Below, piece by piece: positions 9,422 through 42,235 of a stretch of DNA of 64,000 nucleotides. The notes under the pieces were generated by a model. That model worked only from the letters and a program-made list of their open reading frames with translations. It had not been told where the DNA came from and did no database searches. The stretch's first letter is position 1. Each line of letters starts with the position of its first letter. A program made the translations under genes and the position numbers. Source of the DNA: a virus. The stretch covers positions 1-64,000 of IMG/VR virus record IMGVR_UViG_3300047318_000369. One strand, given 5' to 3'.

Positions 9422-9901
9422 ATGTCTGACCTGATCAGCGATGGCAACACGAAGGTTTCGTGGGTGCCGTCGATCGCGAACATCAACGCGCCGACTGCGG
9501 CGGAGTTGAACGGCGGCTCCGACTGGACGCTGCGCATCACCCCGGACGGCCTGAAGACGGACCCGGCGACGGCGGACGTCGACACGTCGTCGCTGGGTTC
9601 GACGTTCACGACGAACCAGCCGGGAAGGCGGAGTTACACCGTCGAACTCACCTTCAAGCGGGGCTCGACCACGATCGAGGACCAGCCGTACACGACGCTC
9701 ACCTACAACGCGTCCGGCTACCTGGCGGTGCGCCGCGGCGTGGCCTTCGGGACGGCCTACGCGACCGGCGACAAGGTGGAGATCTACCCGGTGACGGCGG
9801 GTGAGGCGCAGAACATCGCCCCGGCGGCGAACGAGCTCAACAAGTTCATGTCGCCGCTCAAGGTCACGTCGGACCCGGCGACGAGGGCTGTCGTCGCCTG
9901 A
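9422..9901 (+). CDS. Major tail protein
   Basis: Tail tube subunit. The 159-residue beta-rich protein has an SDWTLRITPDG segment, a TVELTFKRG strand and a YPVTAGEAQNIAPAANE C-terminal region, typical of siphophage tube proteins. ATG 9422 follows GAGGAGGG. The stop overlaps the next start. It is directly followed by the tail assembly chaperone pair, the standard order. Confidence 0.8.
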   Translation: MSDLISDGNTKVSWVPSIANINAPTAAELNGGSDWTLRITPDGLKTDPATADVDTSSLGSTFTTNQPGRRSYTVELTFKRGSTTIEDQPYTTLTYNASGYLAVRRGVAFGTAYATGDKVEIYPVTAGEAQNIAPAANELNKFMSPLKVTSDPATRAVVA

Positions 9902-27291: not shown

Positions 27292-27714
27292 GTGAGCGGT
27301 AAAACGGTGGTGCGGGATGCCCGCCGCTGGTGGGTGGTTGGCTGTGACGGATCGATGCTGCACTTCTATGAAGCGCCGACCAGCCGCAGTGCGGTCGCGG
27401 CATTCAGGGCCAACCTGGTCGAGATGGAGCGTGGATCTGGCGTCAGCATTCGCGACGCACAGTTCATCGTGCGCGGGCTCCAGCCGCACGTCGTCGAGGG
27501 ACCCCTGACGACGCAACAGGCATACGAGCTGGACCTCGGCTGGACGTGGGCCATTTGCTGGGCGGACGGATTCCACGGAACCTCAGTGTCTCCCGTCGGC
27601 CCGATTGACCGCGCAACTGCCGCGTCTCGGCTCGGCGAGCAGACCACGGCGCGACTGGAACGCTCCGCGCGGGTGCGGTACGGCCTCGACCTGATAGGCG
27701 GCAAGGCTGCATGA
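27292..27714 (+). CDS. Hypothetical protein upstream of recombinase
   Basis: 140 residues with a strong GAGGGGGAG before GTG 27292. Segments include RDARRWWVVGCDGSMLHFYEA (in part) and LDLGWTWAICWADGFHG, a Trp-rich alpha/beta protein. It overlaps the recombinase start by 4 bases, so the two are likely co-translated; a partner role (for example a directionality factor) is possible but there is no recognised fold. Confidence 0.6.
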   Translation: MSGKTVVRDARRWWVVGCDGSMLHFYEAPTSRSAVAAFRANLVEMERGSGVSIRDAQFIVRGLQPHVVEGPLTTQQAYELDLGWTWAICWADGFHGTSVSPVGPIDRATAASRLGEQTTARLERSARVRYGLDLIGGKAA

Positions 27715-28853
27715 ACGAATCCGACGAGGTGGTCGACGCCGAACTGGTGGACGACGACCACCTCCCCGCCCGGGTCGAACCCAGCCCCGCCGCCCGGCCG
27801 CTGGTCGACAGGCACACAGTGCTCGCACCCGGCGAACTGCTCGCCCTCGCAGGCGACGGCCCGACGTACACCGAGGCCGACTTCTACATCTCGCAGGACA
27901 CTGCCGACCGAGCCGCACGCGCCAAATCCGAGAACACCCGCCGAAACCGCGACTACACCGTCGAACGCTTCCAGACGTGGTGCCAGCAGCAAGGCCGAGT
28001 CGCGCAGCCGTGCACCACCGCCACCTACACCGAATACGGCGCCCACCTCATCCGCCAAGGCCTCAAAGCCACCAGCATCAGCGCCTACATGAGCCACATC
28101 CGCATGTGGCAGCCCGTCGGCCAACGTCCCGACGCCACCCGCTTCCGCGACCAGCTCGCCACCTACCGGCGCGAACAGCCGCGCACCAACCGAAAGAAGC
28201 AGTCCGAGCCGATCCGGCTGCCCGACCTGATGGCCATGCTCGCCACCTGCGACCGCAGCCCCGCCGGACTCCGCGACGCCGCCCTGCTCGCCTGCGGATA
28301 CGGAACCCTCGCCCGCCGCATCGAACTCGCCGACCTCCTCATCGAAGACCTCACCATCAGCGACAAGCGGATCGTCGTCGACTTCATCATCGACAAGACC
28401 CACCAAGACGGCGACCTCCCACCGACCCCCATCCCTGACCGGCCCGACATCAAGCCCGTACAGCGGCTGCGCGACTGGCTGGCGACGCTCGCCAAGCTCG
28501 GTGCCACCACCGGACCCGTATTCCGTGCGCTCACCTCCGGCGGCACACTCCAGACCCGCACCCTCGCCACAGAACGCGGCGACCACATGACCGGCGACGC
28601 CATCAACGCCATCGTCAAGAAGCGGGCCATCGCCGCCGGACTGGAGAACGCGGCCAAGATGACCGCCCACGGCCTCCGCGCCGGACCCACCACCGACCTC
28701 CGCAAGGCAGGCGTCACCGGCAAGCGCCTGAACAGGGCGGGCCGATGGGCAGACGACTCCCGCATGCCCGAGGTCGTCTACGTGCGCTACGGGGAGGACG
28801 AAGAAGGCGATGCCCTGTCAGCGATCCCCGTGTACGAGGAGACCACCGAGTAG
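27711..28853 (+). CDS. Tyrosine recombinase 1
   Basis: 380 residues. Acidic N-terminal extension (about 50 residues), a core-binding helical domain (NTRRNRDYTVERFQTWC), then the catalytic domain. Visible catalytic boxes are GTLARRIELADL (Arg), TAHGLRAG (His-x-x-Arg) and GRWADDSRMPEVVYVRY (Trp/His position and nucleophile Tyr). This looks like a complete Cre/Xer-type recombinase, distinct from the integrase at 32008. Role: integration, multimer resolution or an acquired element. Confidence 0.85.
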   Translation: MNESDEVVDAELVDDDHLPARVEPSPAARPLVDRHTVLAPGELLALAGDGPTYTEADFYISQDTADRAARAKSENTRRNRDYTVERFQTWCQQQGRVAQPCTTATYTEYGAHLIRQGLKATSISAYMSHIRMWQPVGQRPDATRFRDQLATYRREQPRTNRKKQSEPIRLPDLMAMLATCDRSPAGLRDAALLACGYGTLARRIELADLLIEDLTISDKRIVVDFIIDKTHQDGDLPPTPIPDRPDIKPVQRLRDWLATLAKLGATTGPVFRALTSGGTLQTRTLATERGDHMTGDAINAIVKKRAIAAGLENAAKMTAHGLRAGPTTDLRKAGVTGKRLNRAGRWADDSRMPEVVYVRYGEDEEGDALSAIPVYEETTE

Positions 28854-32007: not shown

Positions 32008-33234
32008 TCAACTCTCCCAGACATCCCGCCACCCCAGACTCCCCAGCGCCCTTACGAACAGCTCCTGCAGGCCATCCAGCCGCTCCTGCCGCATCGGCGG
32101 CGTCGCATGCTGGTAAGTGCCCTTGATGCCAGGGTACTTGTGCCCCGCCTGCTCGAACGCCAACACTGCCTTCACCCCGATCTGCGCCTGGTAGGTGTCG
32201 TGCGAGTGTCGGAGATCCCGCAGTGTCAGCCCCGGCTTGATCGGCTCCCACGCATCGGTACGGCCGTCCGCCACCTTGCGGATAAGTTCGGTCAACGTTC
32301 CCCGCGGCCACCAGCTGCCGTCCTTGCGCGCGAAGACGAAGTCGTGCGGCCACTGGGTCAGGCGCGCTTCCAGCAGGGAGGCCAGGAACGGCGGAACGTC
32401 GATATCGCGGGCACTCTGCGCATTCTTCGTGGGCTCCACCCCGCGGAACCTGATGCGCCGGCCGTCGTCGCCGTACTTGTAGTACTCGACGAGCGCGCCT
32501 GCGTCTTTGTCGATGCGCACGATGGGACAGGTGAACACACCGTCGTCGTGCCGCTGCCTGCGCTCCAGGAGGGTGTTGTGCCGGCGCAGCCCCAAGGCCT
32601 CCTCCACCCGGAGCCCGAGGAAGCCGATCGACAGCACGAGCATCCCGTCGATCGGCCCCATCCGCCGCGCCATCTGCAGTACTTCCTCGGGGCGCGCCCA
32701 CATCTCTTCGTGCTCGGTCTTGCGCTTCTTCGCCGCCTCTGCGGGCAGGCCGGTCAGGCGGCGCCCCTGAAGCGGGTTGACGGCCAGACAGCGTGCGTCG
32801 ACGGCACCCATGAGGATCTGCGACATGAGCCTCACGCATATCTTCGTCGTGACGTGAGCGCACGTCAGGCTGCGGGCCCACGCCTCTATTTCGAACCAGG
32901 TGATGGCGGCCAGCGGAACGTTCTCCCAGCGCGGCAGGACGGTCTGCGTCAGCCGTTCGCGCCGGTTCATGACGGTCTGGCCACGCGGCCTCTGGGCGGC
33001 CATCCACTCCTCGGCGAACTCGCCGAACGTCTTGCGTGAGAGCGCGGGGTCGATCCACCGGCCGGCCCGCATGGCGGCCTCCTGCTCCTCGCCCCACTTC
33101 TCCGCGGTCCCCTTGGTGGGGAATCCGGGCTCGCTGCCCCACGTGCCGTCAGGTTTCTTGTACCTGGCACGCCAGGTGTACTTGGTGGTCCTCTTCCCGT
33201 CCCTGACCTTGTGGACCTTCTCGGCGTAGGCCAT
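32008..33234 (-). CDS. int: Tyrosine integrase 2
   Basis: 408 residues. N-terminal AP2-like arm-binding domain (RARYKKPDGTWGS, then FPTKGTAEKWGEE), SAM-like core-binding domain (TFGEFAEEWMAAQ) and catalytic domain. The active-site boxes are GLRVEEALGL (Arg), LTLRDLRHSH (His-x-x-Arg), EQAGHKYPGIKGTYQH (His and Tyr). This is a standard actinophage tyrosine integrase beside the repressor, so it is the more likely enzyme for prophage integration. Confidence 0.92.
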   Translation of the reverse strand: MAYAEKVHKVRDGKRTTKYTWRARYKKPDGTWGSEPGFPTKGTAEKWGEEQEAAMRAGRWIDPALSRKTFGEFAEEWMAAQRPRGQTVMNRRERLTQTVLPRWENVPLAAITWFEIEAWARSLTCAHVTTKICVRLMSQILMGAVDARCLAVNPLQGRRLTGLPAEAAKKRKTEHEEMWARPEEVLQMARRMGPIDGMLVLSIGFLGLRVEEALGLRRHNTLLERRQRHDDGVFTCPIVRIDKDAGALVEYYKYGDDGRRIRFRGVEPTKNAQSARDIDVPPFLASLLEARLTQWPHDFVFARKDGSWWPRGTLTELIRKVADGRTDAWEPIKPGLTLRDLRHSHDTYQAQIGVKAVLAFEQAGHKYPGIKGTYQHATPPMRQERLDGLQELFVRALGSLGWRDVWES

Positions 33235-35047: not shown

Positions 35048-35608
35048 GTGTCCAGTGTGACAGACCGCGACTTCATCACCGAGATGGCCGAGGCGGTCGA
35101 GGGTGCGATTCCCGCAGGTGACTACGTGGCGTCGATGGTTGCCGCCGACCTCGTGGAGCACCTGAGGGCGCAGGACCCGGAACTGCTGGCCGGGTGGCTG
35201 GACTTGAAGGCGGCGGTGATCCTCGCGGACGTCGTGGCCCGCAGGTCGAACAGCAAGCGGCAGGCGGCCCGGATCGGCGCCCCGCGCAGGGCGTTCGCCG
35301 AGGCGGCCCGCAGTTTCGCCGGTGGTGACGTCACGGCGTTGCACCCCTTCGCCGCCGAGTACGTGGTCGACGAGGACAACACCCGTCGGACGGTGGCGAA
35401 CATGACCGCCGACGACTGCCGGTTCGTCGCCTCGAAGTACGAGGACGCGGCGCGGATCTCGAAGTTGGAGGCGGCGTTCCACCGGGCGGTCGGCAAGAAG
35501 ATCGGCGGCCAGTTGGTCGGCGAGGTCTTCACAGAGGCGCAGTACCTGGAGATGTACCGCTCCGTCACCCAGCAGGGACCGCGAGCGATGCCGCGAGCAG
35601 CGGCATGA
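35048..35608 (+). CDS. Helical early protein, unknown
   Basis: 186 residues from GTG 35048, which has AAGAAAGGAGG upstream; ATG 34964 in an ATGA overlap is an alternative that would add 28 low-complexity residues. Almost all helix (AVEGAIPAGDYVASMVAADLVEHL in part, and AAFHRAVGKKIGGQLVG). A G/C hairpin lies at 34981-35005 in the leader. It is immediately upstream of the repeat array and Cas7-like gene, so a link is possible but unproven. Confidence 0.65.
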   Translation: MSSVTDRDFITEMAEAVEGAIPAGDYVASMVAADLVEHLRAQDPELLAGWLDLKAAVILADVVARRSNSKRQAARIGAPRRAFAEAARSFAGGDVTALHPFAAEYVVDEDNTRRTVANMTADDCRFVASKYEDAARISKLEAAFHRAVGKKIGGQLVGEVFTEAQYLEMYRSVTQQGPRAMPRAAA

Positions 35609-36369
35609 CGAAGAGCACCGGCCGACACACCGCGCCTCACACCTCCTCGACTATTCACGCCCAGGCGTTTCCACCCCACTCGGAACGACTTCCCGACGCC
35701 ACGCGACCGCACCTCATCCCAACTCTTGCCGACTTTTCTTTTCGCCACCGCGCCAGCCTCCACACCCCATGCCGACGGATCAACCCGGGCCGTTACTTCC
35801 CGCCCCTCGTCGACTACGCGCCCCTACGCAGGGCTTCCCGCTGCCGCCCCACCCAGCCGACTTTTCTGCCCCCTCCTGCCCCGCGCAGTTCAGCGCTACC
35901 CATGCCGACTATCCGTCGCTTCACCAACCAGCCCGCTCTGACTCGCGTCGACGTGCCAAGCCCACCCTCACCACGCCGTACCGACTGCCCGACACGAGGC
36001 CCGGCCACCCACCCCATCCCGTGCCGACTTCCCAATCCGGCTCGTCGCCGCACAGTCCGAGCCAAGCCCTCCGACACCCCCGCCCCGGCCTGGACCAGCC
36101 ACCCCGGCCCAGCTCCGACCGACTACCCGGTCCGGCTCGCCACCTCGCCACACATCACGACTCGCTCCAACCGACATGCCATCTCGATCCGCCTCGACCC
36201 GAGCCCGCCCGCAACGACTGCTCTTCCCGTCTCGCCTCGGCGCCCACCGTCCCATGACGACTTGCCAACCCTCCGCAGGCCAGGCCTAGCCGACTACCCA
36301 TTCCAACTCAGCCCACTCCGCCGCAGCCCACACGACCGCCCAGGTCACCGAAAGGAACTCACCACATGA
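35605..36369 (+). other. Open frame across the array, probably not a gene
   Basis: A 254-codon open frame starts in an ATGA overlap with the stop of 35048-35608 and ends in an ATGA overlap with the RAMP start, which looks gene-like. Against coding: the product is low-complexity Pro/Arg/Ser/Thr, GC at third positions is about 72% against about 95% in neighbours, and the repeat units fall in all three frames. Stop codons are simply rare in C-rich sequence. I treat it as non-coding. Confidence 0.3.
35648..36337 (+). repeat. Degenerate CGACT array, about 18 units, C-rich
   Basis: About 690 bases of strongly C-rich, G-poor plus-strand sequence (about half C by eye). CGACT occurs 13 times at 35648, 35686, 35730, 35811, 35858, 35906, 35982, 36025, 36120, 36158, 36215, 36258 and 36291. 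Variants CGACG/CGACA/CGACC lie at 35773, 35949, 36072, 36172 and 36333. Best consensus CCCATGCCGACTWYCC. Of 17 intervals, 16 are within one base of 33, 38, 43 or 48. As spacings are not multiples of three, no single frame preserves the motif. It is directly upstream of the RAMP gene. Confidence 0.8.
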
Positions 36370-37037
36370 CCAGCATCTTCGCCAGCTTCACCGACAAGGC
36401 GTGGCCCCACCGCTTCCACGGCACCATCCGCGTGAAGAACATCGCAGGCGGCACGCCGACTGACCCGAAGGTCGCCGAGGGCTGGCTGCGAACCAAACTC
36501 GCCGACAAGGACGACCTGATCCGCGAGATGGTCGCCCAGACCATGGTCGACCGAGGCGTCACCGCCGACGAGGCCGCGAAGCTCGTCGACACCAACAAGC
36601 ACCTCAACGGCTTCCGTCGCGACGAGGACGGCTTGTACATCGAAGGCCGCCAGTTGAAGGCCGCGATCAAGGAAGCCGCGTCCGTCGCCCGCTCCGTCGA
36701 CAAGCTGAAGTCCCGCTGGGGCTCCACCAACAAGGGCGTCCAAGGCTTCGTCGCCGAACACATCATGGTCGTCGAGGACAAGCTCCACCTCGGCGTCACC
36801 GAGCCCACCGGCGTCCTCCAGTCCTTCCCGAAGAACCCGCGCACCGGCCAAACCGGTATCCAGTACACGGAGTTCATCGAGACCGCCGAGTTCGACTTCA
36901 CGGTCATCTCCGACTACGCGTTCACCGACGAAGAGTGGGCCATGCTCTGGCTCACCGGCGAACAGCAGGGCGTCGGCGCTTCCCGCTCGCAGGGCTTCGG
37001 CAGGTACGAGGTCATCAAGTGGGAGGCCACCGCATGA
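36366..37037 (+). CDS. Cas7-like RAMP-family protein
   Basis: 223 residues; ATG 36366 follows AAAGGA (36351-36356). C-terminal GVGASRSQGFGRYEV (202-216) is the glycine-rich loop typical of RAMP proteins (Cas5/6/7, Csm3, Cmr4). LYIEGRQLKAAIKEAA (90-105) matches the iPGSSLKGalR helix of Cas7/Csm3-type RAMPs. Length fits a single Cas7-like domain. No Cas10, Cas5, Cas6, Cas1 or Cas2 is nearby. Its position behind the repeat array suggests it binds the array RNA; this is inference. A known alternative is a RAMP fold used for another RNA function. Confidence 0.7.
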   Translation: MTSIFASFTDKAWPHRFHGTIRVKNIAGGTPTDPKVAEGWLRTKLADKDDLIREMVAQTMVDRGVTADEAAKLVDTNKHLNGFRRDEDGLYIEGRQLKAAIKEAASVARSVDKLKSRWGSTNKGVQGFVAEHIMVVEDKLHLGVTEPTGVLQSFPKNPRTGQTGIQYTEFIETAEFDFTVISDYAFTDEEWAMLWLTGEQQGVGASRSQGFGRYEVIKWEATA

Positions 37038-37273
37038 GCGACCAGACCCCCGCGTCGGACGACACCACCGCCGTGATCAAGCACCTGTGTGCCGAGCTCG
37101 GCATCAACACCATCCCCTATACGGACGAGGCGGGTGTCTCGCACGTCGAGATCGACGTGATTCACGTGGCCAGCCTGATCGAGGCCGGCACTCTCGCCGC
37201 CCGCGCCGAAGACCACCCGCCGTTCGTGGAGTTCGCCCGCCGCCTCGGCATCACGCTCGGTGGTGCGGCATGA
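37034..37273 (+). CDS. Small protein downstream of RAMP
   Basis: 79 residues, ATGA overlap with the RAMP gene and with the next gene. TAVIKHLCAELGINTIPY, then a short beta stretch and FVEFARRLGITLGG. Could be a small helical partner of the RAMP protein as they are translationally coupled; no family recognised. Confidence 0.6.
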   Translation: MSDQTPASDDTTAVIKHLCAELGINTIPYTDEAGVSHVEIDVIHVASLIEAGTLAARAEDHPPFVEFARRLGITLGGAA

Positions 37274-37701
37274 GCGACACCCAGATGACGCCGGAGCGCA
37301 TCGCCGAGATCAAGGACTTGCTCAAGTACGAGTCCTCCATCGCCTTCTACAGCAGCCGGGCGAAGGAGTCGATGCTCCTGCTCGTCGAGGAGGCCGAGGA
37401 GGCTGCACGTCTCCGCAAGCAGGCGGCGATCGTCGAGAAGTTCGTGGCCGACCGCGCCGACTACATCACCGCGATCCGTAACTGCCACCCCGACAACGGC
37501 CACGACTACGACCGCTGGCAGGGGCACGCCGAATCCCGACGGCAGCTCGCCGAGCAGCTCGGCCTGCCCGTCGCATGGCCCGCCAAGGAGGCTCCCGCGC
37601 CGCAGCACTACGACAAGACGCCGGACCCGCTGGACGGATGCCACTGGTGCGCGTGCGGCAACCCCTGGCCCTGCGAGCACGCCAAGGCGGTGACGGTATG
37701 A
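37270..37701 (+). CDS. Coiled-coil protein with Cys cluster
   Basis: 143 residues. Helical N-terminal two thirds (ESMLLLVEEAEEAARLRKQAA), then a C-terminal CHWCACGNPWPCEH, a compact Cys/His cluster that may bind zinc. Overlaps both neighbours by 4 bases. Unknown function. Confidence 0.6.
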   Translation: MSDTQMTPERIAEIKDLLKYESSIAFYSSRAKESMLLLVEEAEEAARLRKQAAIVEKFVADRADYITAIRNCHPDNGHDYDRWQGHAESRRQLAEQLGLPVAWPAKEAPAPQHYDKTPDPLDGCHWCACGNPWPCEHAKAVTV

Positions 37702-41049: not shown

Positions 41050-41391
41050 ATGTCATCCACCACCCACGAAGTCCGCGCCAGCCAGACGGATGCCCCGGTC
41101 CTCGTCCAGGCCATCGAGCCCGTGCCCGGCCTGTTCGTGTACGAGCAGCCCGAGGAACTCCGCAGGCCTCTCGACGACTGGTATCCGTGGCGCCTCGGCC
41201 ACCACTCCGGGCTGATCGTCGCCGCCGCCATGTATGAGGACGACGCCATCCGCGGCGCACAGAAGATCGCCGACCGGGCCGACTGGACGCAGGACGTCGA
41301 GGAGTTGCGGACCGCGATCGACGCCGACGGCCTGTACACGGACCTCAGCTGGTCCTCCTGCGAGCACCCCACACTCGCCCGCCTCATCTGA
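41050..41391 (+). CDS. Hypothetical early protein
   Basis: 113 residues, GAGGAGGGACCGCC before ATG. Central VLVQAIEPVPGLFVYEQPEE and AAAMYEDDAIRGAQKIADRADW. Mixed alpha/beta. Unknown; followed by a large hairpin. Confidence 0.6.
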   Translation: MSSTTHEVRASQTDAPVLVQAIEPVPGLFVYEQPEELRRPLDDWYPWRLGHHSGLIVAAAMYEDDAIRGAQKIADRADWTQDVEELRTAIDADGLYTDLSWSSCEHPTLARLI

Positions 41392-41442
41392 CCAACAACC
41401 CCACAGCCGCGGCGCGTTGAGCCCCCACTCCGCGCCGCACCA

Positions 41443-41487
41443 GGGCAGCTCGCCCCGCACCACCCCCCTGGTCGGGGCGAGCTGCCC
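41443..41487 (+). terminator. 14-bp perfect hairpin between operon segments
   Basis: GGGCAGCTCGCCCC (41443-41456) pairs exactly with 41474-41487. No T run follows. Similar T-less perfect hairpins separate other parts of this operon. Confidence 0.65.
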
Positions 41488-41516
41488 GCCCATTACGACA
41501 CCCGAAAGCGAGTCCC

Positions 41517-41744
41517 ATGAGCACCGAAAGCACCACAAAGCCTGTCACGCCACTGCGGTGCACCCGCTGCGGCGACGAGGACGGGCCGTTCACCGCCGAC
41601 GGCCTGTGCGAGGAGTGCGACCCCGAGGCGCGGCTGCTGTCCGCACTGGAAGACGGCGGCTGGCTGGGGGACAACGCCCGCCGGCTCATCGACGCCTACG
41701 CGGCAGTTGTCGTCCACCGGGCGCGGGCGGGGGCTGCGCGATGA
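41517..41744 (+). CDS. Zinc-finger-like small protein
   Basis: 75 residues. CTRCGDEDGPFTADGLCEEC gives two CxxC pairs, a treble-clef-like or ribbon zinc site; the C-terminal half is a helix. Overlaps the HNH gene by 4 bases. Confidence 0.65.
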   Translation: MSTESTTKPVTPLRCTRCGDEDGPFTADGLCEECDPEARLLSALEDGGWLGDNARRLIDAYAAVVVHRARAGAAR

Positions 41745-42235
41745 CCGCCGCGGTGGAGCAAAGTCTGCGCGCCTGGGTGGAGGTCCCGGCATTGGACTCG
41801 GGAACCCAAGTGACAGTCCTTGTGGACGTCGATGACTACATAGCCCTCGATGGGCGGCGCCTGTCCATCGGCTCGCACGGCTATGCCCAGATCTGGGCGC
41901 GCCCCGGGCTGCGCCTTCTGCACAAGTGGATCATGGGCGTCCCAACCGGCACCCGGTACCGCGTAATCGTCGACCACATCAACCGCGACACGCTCGACTG
42001 CCGCCGTTCGAACTTGCGCCTAGTCACCCCGACGCAATCGAACCTCAACAGGGTGGTCGCGGCCCGGGATCTTCCCATCGGCGTCTATCGCACCCGCAAT
42101 GGCAAGTTCGACGCCCGCATCAAGCGGGCGGGCGTCGCGCATCACCTCGGAGTCTTCGATAGCCCGGAACAGGCCGCCGACGCGGTCAGTGTCGCTCGCG
42201 CCCTTTTCGACGCCCCTGCGGAGCGTGCCGCATGA
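41741..42235 (+). CDS. HNH endonuclease with AP2-like domain
   Basis: 164 residues. The N-terminal part (GYAQIWARPGLRLLHKWIMG, then VIVDHINRDTLDCRRSNLRLV) is an HNH core with the D-H-I-N-R...N-L-R pattern. The C-terminal GVYRTRNGKFDARIKRAGVAHHLGVFDS (in part) is the AP2-like module of phage homing endonucleases. Unlike most mobile HNH genes it overlaps both neighbours by 4 bases, so it is fully integrated in the operon. Confidence 0.85.
   Translation: MTAAVEQSLRAWVEVPALDSGTQVTVLVDVDDYIALDGRRLSIGSHGYAQIWARPGLRLLHKWIMGVPTGTRYRVIVDHINRDTLDCRRSNLRLVTPTQSNLNRVVAARDLPIGVYRTRNGKFDARIKRAGVAHHLGVFDSPEQAADAVSVARALFDAPAERAA

Follow-up and report, generated by a model that had tools for sequence, protein, structure and literature searches.

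The stretch of virus DNA analysed here (the window: 64,000 nucleotides, positions 1 to 64,000 of the 90.5-kb IMG/VR virus record IMGVR_UViG_3300047318_000369) carries, from left to right on its plus strand, an accessory gene (35048-35608), a C-rich tract (35620-36345) and a gene for a RAMP protein (36366-37037). We consider it very probable (roughly 90%) that together they form an inter-phage weapon, carried by a temperate phage (probably one of actinobacteria) and akin to VIPR (Viral Interference Programmable Repeat). According to the main text of a 2026 preprint (PMC13142463), VIPR consists of a RAMP encoded by the phage, together with a vap gene and with guide RNAs built of YNNGG pentamers, the NN dinucleotides of which pair with DNA while every third target base is skipped (a 1-nt skip); it distinguishes seven types, type II being that of phage SUSP1. 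The locus has the anatomy of VIPR, with a code that is C-type and punctuated by GAC. The initial annotation had proposed a phage-borne guide array without Cas1 and Cas2, in one operon with a Cas7-type RAMP, and both the RAMP fold and the co-occurrence of RAMP and array agree with this; its description of the system as undescribed does not stand, as the kind had already been reported as VIPR, the preprint being the only fitting source found in a literature search. Array, code, fold, co-occurrence and the decoded target matches were all computed here.

The array proper (35648-36345, plus strand) comprises about 17 units of NN-N-Y-C pentamers with GAC between units and the core CCGACTNCCC. It is preceded by a leader-like stretch, GGCCGAYRCACCGCGCCYCRCACC (35620-35643, plus strand), which was recognized by eye at the start of the array in the window, in the close relatives L003, L006 and L007 and, with one deviation, in L111 (the prefix L denotes the loci compared). 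The region 35609-36345 is 49% C, 20% G, 17% A and 14% T, confirming the C-rich sense strand first remarked upon, and contains 24 CGAC words (mean 5.8 and maximum 15 in 2000 mononucleotide shuffles); its autocorrelation of C at lag 5 is 0.235, compared with a maximum of 0.134 in 5000 shuffles. When units are aligned at the core the register is exact (GAC, k pentamers, next GAC), with core spacings of 33, 38, 43, 48, 53 and so on, that is, 5k+3. Core-to-core distances of 20-70 nt number 350 across 33 loci (duplicate L011 omitted), and 181 of them leave a remainder of 3 modulo 5 (chi-square p ~3e-51), as do 7/12 in the window by itself, and no comparable excess was found modulo 6 (the Cas7 footprint) or modulo 3 (codons). 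Because a unit consists of GAC plus k pentamers, the step of 5, already noticed initially, is the main signal; the periodicity of 33-48 bases, proposed alongside it, overlaps the range of unit lengths, but the true rule is 5k+3. Tandem Repeats Finder reported only one 31-base stretch in the array, with a period of 15.

The composition of the pentamers was examined in 449 core-to-core stretches. Of these, 170 were regular; the rest had a different residue modulo 5 (172), a length outside 28-80 (101) or too few cytosines at base 5 (six). A regular unit was one with at least 80% of its pentamers ending in C, and the first, core-like pentamer of each unit was omitted. In the regular units (1138 pentamers), base 5 is C in 98.0%, C occupies base 3 in 51% and base 4 in 66%, and bases 1 and 2 are near even. 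Units are mostly 6-10 pentamers long, and arrays often hold 10-20 or more of them. The CCGAC core and the fifth-base C are kept in the AT-rich viruses L043-L045 (as read in L045), with base 4 often A, which means that high G+C content does not account for the pattern. There are also suggestive signs, at sequence level, that the NN bases are preferentially kept between units of different phages. An in-register comparison (L048/L049 and L017/L018 omitted) gave 13 similar unit pairs, as against 4.8 per shuffled run, with held-out identities of 0.80 for either NN base, 0.57 for base 3 and 0.70 for base 4 (p 0.014, from non-independent pairs). One window unit (36026-36068, plus strand) has an NN string nearly identical to that of a unit in L018, with 14/16 NN bases kept and most third and fourth bases different. 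An earlier test of phase conservation, with tracts in mixed register, was uninformative (151 pairs, and 133 in shuffles).

The 223-residue RAMP protein has, in its AlphaFold model (mean pLDDT, the model's confidence score, 77; residues 44-80, likely the thumb, of low confidence), a Cas7/Csm3 fold. All 50 of the Foldseek matches listed were CRISPR effector-complex chains, mostly of types VII and III (best E 8.5e-7), and the VIA fold comparison gave a Z score of 11.4 with a root mean square deviation of 4.5 over 162 residues, singly solved chains named Csm3 giving Z 10.0-10.6. A G-loop at the C-terminus, GVGASRSQGFGRY, is nearly invariant across 33 aligned relatives (alignment A2: the window and 32 loci, near-duplicates, L032 and L039 omitted). 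In sequence searches the relatives had no consistent Pfam family, PADLOC gave weak matches to Csm3 and Cas6, and the best PHROG, phrog_4652, was weak (7/33 members, best E 0.0023). That same PHROG includes (E 1.4e-96) the SUSP1 protein at L050:28474-29061, which we infer to be the Vipr of the preprint from its size, its position and the pentamer tracts flanking it.

The accessory gene encodes about 186 residues from a presumed GTG start and is vap-like; its product is helical, without a known fold (AlphaFold mean pLDDT 85.6; no match in the PDB below E 3.5). A homologue lies near the RAMP gene in 33 of 45 loci, window and duplicate included (E at most 8e-30, the search profile having been made from those same proteins), and a weak one in L113 (E 0.007); in six of the 11 loci where none was found, the RAMP gene lies less than 400 nt from a contig end.

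The RAMP gene and the array occur together widely. A first scan gave eight viral loci, all with an array on reading, and an alignment-based scan gave 40, including those eight; genome contigs yielded no RAMP loci with the first, narrower alignment and six with a wider one, and a search of plasmids found no match to the RAMP. The 45 loci tabulated are the window, L010, the six genome loci and 37 viral loci (the 40 found, less near-duplicates L016, L046 and L047; duplicate L011 and near-duplicates L043-L045 were retained). Cores were present within a C-rich stretch beside the RAMP gene in 34/39 rows, the exceptions being L031, L035 and L043-L045, the last three of which do have arrays on a looser reading of L045. 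Autocorrelation of C above 0.15 at both lag 5 and lag 10 was found no more than 3 kb from the RAMP gene in 41/45 rows (exceptions L030, L035, L114 and L115), compared with 2/5368 control values away from it. The value for a locus is the highest among several hundred from overlapping windows, which makes rows in which few windows qualify doubtful, most of all L031, which has two cores. The co-occurrence expected initially thus holds, and RAMP genes were not routinely found without an array. The position of the array varies: it lies upstream of the RAMP gene, downstream of it (as in L010 and L045) or on both sides of the accessory gene, which then splits it (L009/L042). RAMP and array together are found in an isolate of Streptacidiphilus, in the record of a Microcystis phage and in viruses rich in AT. 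Several of these loci deserve mention in their own right. In Microcystis phage Mae-JY09 (PP395641) an unannotated array of like kind lies 3' of the RAMP gene (L010:6715-7110). In L037 a second, inverted array (9541-9880) lies upstream of the RAMP gene and adjoins a divergent gene, and L034 has a like G-type signal. More distant RAMP relatives, at 24-32% identity, occur in metagenome bins of Polyangiaceae, Actinomycetes and Acidimicrobiaceae (L113-L116), with a period-5 tract that is clear in L116, weak in L113 and marginally below the cut-off in L114 and L115.

What might the guides recognize? Parsing gave 265 units in all and 14 in the window, and eight of these 14 (six short ones were left out) were tried as 1-nt-skip patterns against 150-200 genomes each. 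Two of the eight, those beginning at 35859 and 36216, match five distinct integrases, all antisense and with the skip at the wobble base, and so by sequence correspond to integrases carried by other prophages or integrative elements, in line with the initial expectation that guides would match other mobile elements. The unit at 35859-35906 (plus strand) decodes to codons of tyrosine integrases and reads, in antisense, M/I-Y-L-L-R-H/Q-G-H/Q-K/N, and all 18 of its NN bases match integrases at the sequence MYLLRHGHK in the viral sequences L227 and L228 and in the genomes L225 and L226 (found with a 16-base search, all 18 bases then being checked). As L226 and L227 are the same sequence, the distinct targets number three. 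PHROGs identify L225, L227 and L228 as integrases (E 5e-25 to 8e-33), recognition by Pfam being poor (best E 2.7e-4), and the chance expectation for an 18-base match is 0.002-0.04 in 150 genomes. The unit at 36216-36258 (plus strand; antisense I/M-T-G-P-A-T-K/N-H/Q) matches at 16/16 NN bases in L230 and L231, which are homologous integrases (E 3.3e-43 and 1.5e-43) of a group other than that hit by the first unit. The phage record itself encodes two different tyrosine integrases, at 27711-28853 (plus strand) and 32008-33234 (minus strand), neither of which its guides match exactly; at the box concerned they read LRHSHDTYQ and HGLRAG. When the array was masked, the best matches of the guides within the 64-kb window itself were 14/18, 13/16, 11/14 and 10/12, none of them exact.

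A further test of the skip rule came from a guide common to two related phages, L025 and L028, in which 17/18 NN bases are kept while some of bases 3 and 4 differ. Used as a 1-nt-skip pattern it matched 84 viral stretches, and with a 2-nt skip none; a different guide of like length, from L022/L025, gave three viral matches with the 1-nt skip and was left undecoded because these lay in proteins without evident relation. In 59 of the 84 (56/80 plus 3/4) the match lies in an open frame, 120 codons or longer, that encodes HELGH[LIM]V[IM]H; the guide decodes to HELGHLVMH, the zinc motif of ImmA/IrrE proteins, read in antisense, the wobble base being the one skipped. Pfam recognized Peptidase_M78 in all three of the matched proteins tested (one viral, two genomic). 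The sole NN difference between the two phages' versions (AG/AT) corresponds to L versus I/M, and both variants occur among the matches. Among 150 genomes of the family of the Streptacidiphilus host, the pattern was found in five, and the same pattern backwards, as a control, in none.

Several results weigh against this interpretation. The genome searches for the guides at 35859 and 36216 used 16 bases, for which we estimate, assuming even composition, about 0.6 chance matches per 150 genomes, so the case for the latter guide depends on its two matches being homologous integrases. Five of the eight window guides had no match in 150-200 genomes each, and a single match for one window guide, in a Ser/Thr kinase, is probably due to chance. 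The guide at 36026 had 14 viral matches without a common gene and no match in 200 genomes; a candidate link to AP2 endonucleases, suggested by motifs, was not confirmed. (In the open reading frame at 41234-42235, plus strand, the C-terminal part has the look of an HNH endonuclease that carries an AP2-like domain.) Of the 84 ImmA-guide matches, 25 fall outside these genes; they include two further gene families, with 11 and 9 loci, that are hit in other codon phases, most likely by chance. Clustering alone is therefore no proof. When all guides were compared with 0.7-1.4 Mb of local phage DNA, the one search that also covered 0- and 3-nt skips, there was no clear excess over shuffles for any skip rule; with a 1-nt skip there was one 16/16 match, and none in the shuffle. 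Direct sequence kinship to SUSP1 Vipr is thin: comparison of the RAMP family profile with the SUSP1 protein gave E 0.0039 over 131 columns including the G-loop, but an hhalign probability of only 8.7%. Finally, as the window array is C-rich on the RAMP strand and SUSP1 is G-rich, its consensus is not GGY/NN, and the conserved trinucleotide of its pentamers on the RAMP strand is not GGY itself.

The last point bears on the main alternative, which is a VIPR-like system with guides transcribed from the opposite strand, which would give a G-rich RNA (G-R-N-NN) like the GGY/NN guides of the preprint. The complement of the array is indeed closer to GGY/NN than is the sense strand, and the target matches fit both strands equally. 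Nevertheless, in a scan of both strands all the listed core clusters, whether upstream, downstream or split, were on the RAMP strand; the inversion of the second array of L037 coincides exactly with a divergent neighbouring gene; the guides of SUSP1 are sense to vipr; and the last core in the window directly precedes the ribosome-binding site of the RAMP gene. We therefore regard this alternative as unlikely, though deserving of serious attention, and from the strand of the cores and the inverted L037 array the transcribed strand is most likely the C-rich one.

Much less probable is a CRISPR-like array with contiguous spacers, a minimal type III- or IV-like system without adaptation genes. The Cas7/Csm3 fold of the RAMP would suit it, and units of 33-58 nt overlap the lengths of CRISPR units, a likeness in size also remarked upon initially. 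However, the pentamer code contradicts it: contiguous spacers would not be expected to have C as the fifth base in 98% of regular-unit pentamers, the decoded matches require the 1-nt skip, and none of the seven neighbouring open reading frames searched matched a cas family in Pfam; the information resides in two of every five bases. It is comparably improbable that the tract acts as DNA (replication iterons, or binding sites for the accessory protein, which could be a DNA-binding protein) or as a Rho-loading leader controlling RAMP expression. Rho does bind C-rich, G-poor RNA, but neither version predicts hypervariable NN dinucleotides, an exact register, NN strings shared between phages or decoded targets in genes. 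A spurious open reading frame of 254 codons (35605-36369) covers the entire array and has ATGA overlaps at both ends, which might be taken to indicate a real Pro/Arg-rich protein. We find this the least credible explanation of all, as the frame has no family match and a period of 5 rather than 3, and the arrays of the relatives L009, L010 and L045 lie elsewhere. Gene callers may nonetheless annotate such frames as hypothetical proteins, and so hide arrays of this kind.

If the locus is indeed VIPR-like, with a C-rich guide RNA, its working might be pictured as follows, transcription, processing, binding, silencing and the role of the accessory protein being what we infer. The vap-like gene, the array and the RAMP gene would be transcribed from left to right as one operon; the array ends on the same strand as the RAMP gene, as had been noted, although the distance to the RAMP ATG is about 20 bases and not 29. 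The C-rich RNA would be cut into guide RNAs, one for each GAC-bounded unit of mostly 6-10 pentamers, and these would be coated by RAMP subunits, presumably one per pentamer. The N-Y-C bases could be held by the RAMP while the NN bases paired with the target DNA, each dinucleotide being separated from the next by a single target base left unpaired. With this three-base step a guide could read just the first two positions of each codon and leave the wobble base out, and synonymous changes would then offer the target no escape. Window guides would be aimed at integrases, and those of L025 and L028 at ImmA/IrrE genes of the lysogeny switch; binding would most likely stop transcription of the targeted genes.

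Such an arrangement, if true, would allow one guide to cover a whole gene family among rivals (through the Arg-His box of integrases or the HELGH of ImmA) despite synonymous codon differences, and the choice of conserved codons suggests phage warfare that is family-wide rather than strain-wide. Targets of these two kinds predict that superinfecting or resident elements would fail to integrate or would alter their choice between lysis and lysogeny. As a close relative is present in a cultured actinomycete, Streptacidiphilus carbonis NBRC 100919 (L111, RAMP 86% identical to that of the window), these predictions can be tested at the bench. The S. carbonis array (L111:9504-9790) contains a run of N, either masking or an assembly gap, with the sequence preceding the gap repeated beyond it. 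The present results also provide an independent test of the VIPR rule, in another virus group with a different repeat consensus, where the rule predicts real genes, and bear on the pre-CRISPR origin of RNA-guide reading by RAMP proteins. The host of the window phage is probably a streptomycete-like bacterium.

Among known systems, the RAMP protein resembles the Cas7 proteins of class 1 CRISPR-Cas (Csm3, and the Cas7 of type VII) in its predicted fold (Z ~11), its G-loop and, presumably, the formation of a filament on guide RNA, but no cas operon was seen adjoining it and there are neither near-identical repeats nor contiguous spacers. Its top viral fold match is an unnamed entry (E 1.1e-10), and the closest named one is a Cas system-associated RAMP superfamily protein of Siphoviridae sp. 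ctcMb1 (A0A8S5R426, E 1.3e-8). The likeness to VIPR comprises a single small phage RAMP, whose fold and G-loop agree with the RRM-type core, G-loop and thumb that mark Vipr homologues, one accessory gene, vap-like, long non-coding pentamer tracts with hypervariable NN, and a 1-nt skip that falls at the wobble base of matches in prophage genes, including lysogeny genes. SUSP1 itself has, at L050:27500-29510, two genes bordered by NNGGY tracts that lie on the same strand as the genes and show a similar lag-5 signal; the larger of the two gene products is the phrog_4652 protein. The window-type consensus, by contrast, is NN-N-Y-C and C-rich on the RAMP strand, instead of YNNGG, and is organized in units punctuated by GAC; and whereas type II VIPR has a structured 3' tail, we found no inverted repeats in 35400-37300 and no above-threshold Rfam match at the array (the sole sub-threshold match being within the RAMP gene, on the other strand). 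The main text of PMC13142463 does not include a core or a C-type code of this kind. We think the odds about even that these loci represent an undescribed type of VIPR, with a C-type, GAC-punctuated code and 10-20 or more guides per array, aimed at the codons of conserved motifs and with NN bases kept between phages, which is distributed among phages of actinobacteria, one phage recorded from Microcystis and viruses rich in AT.
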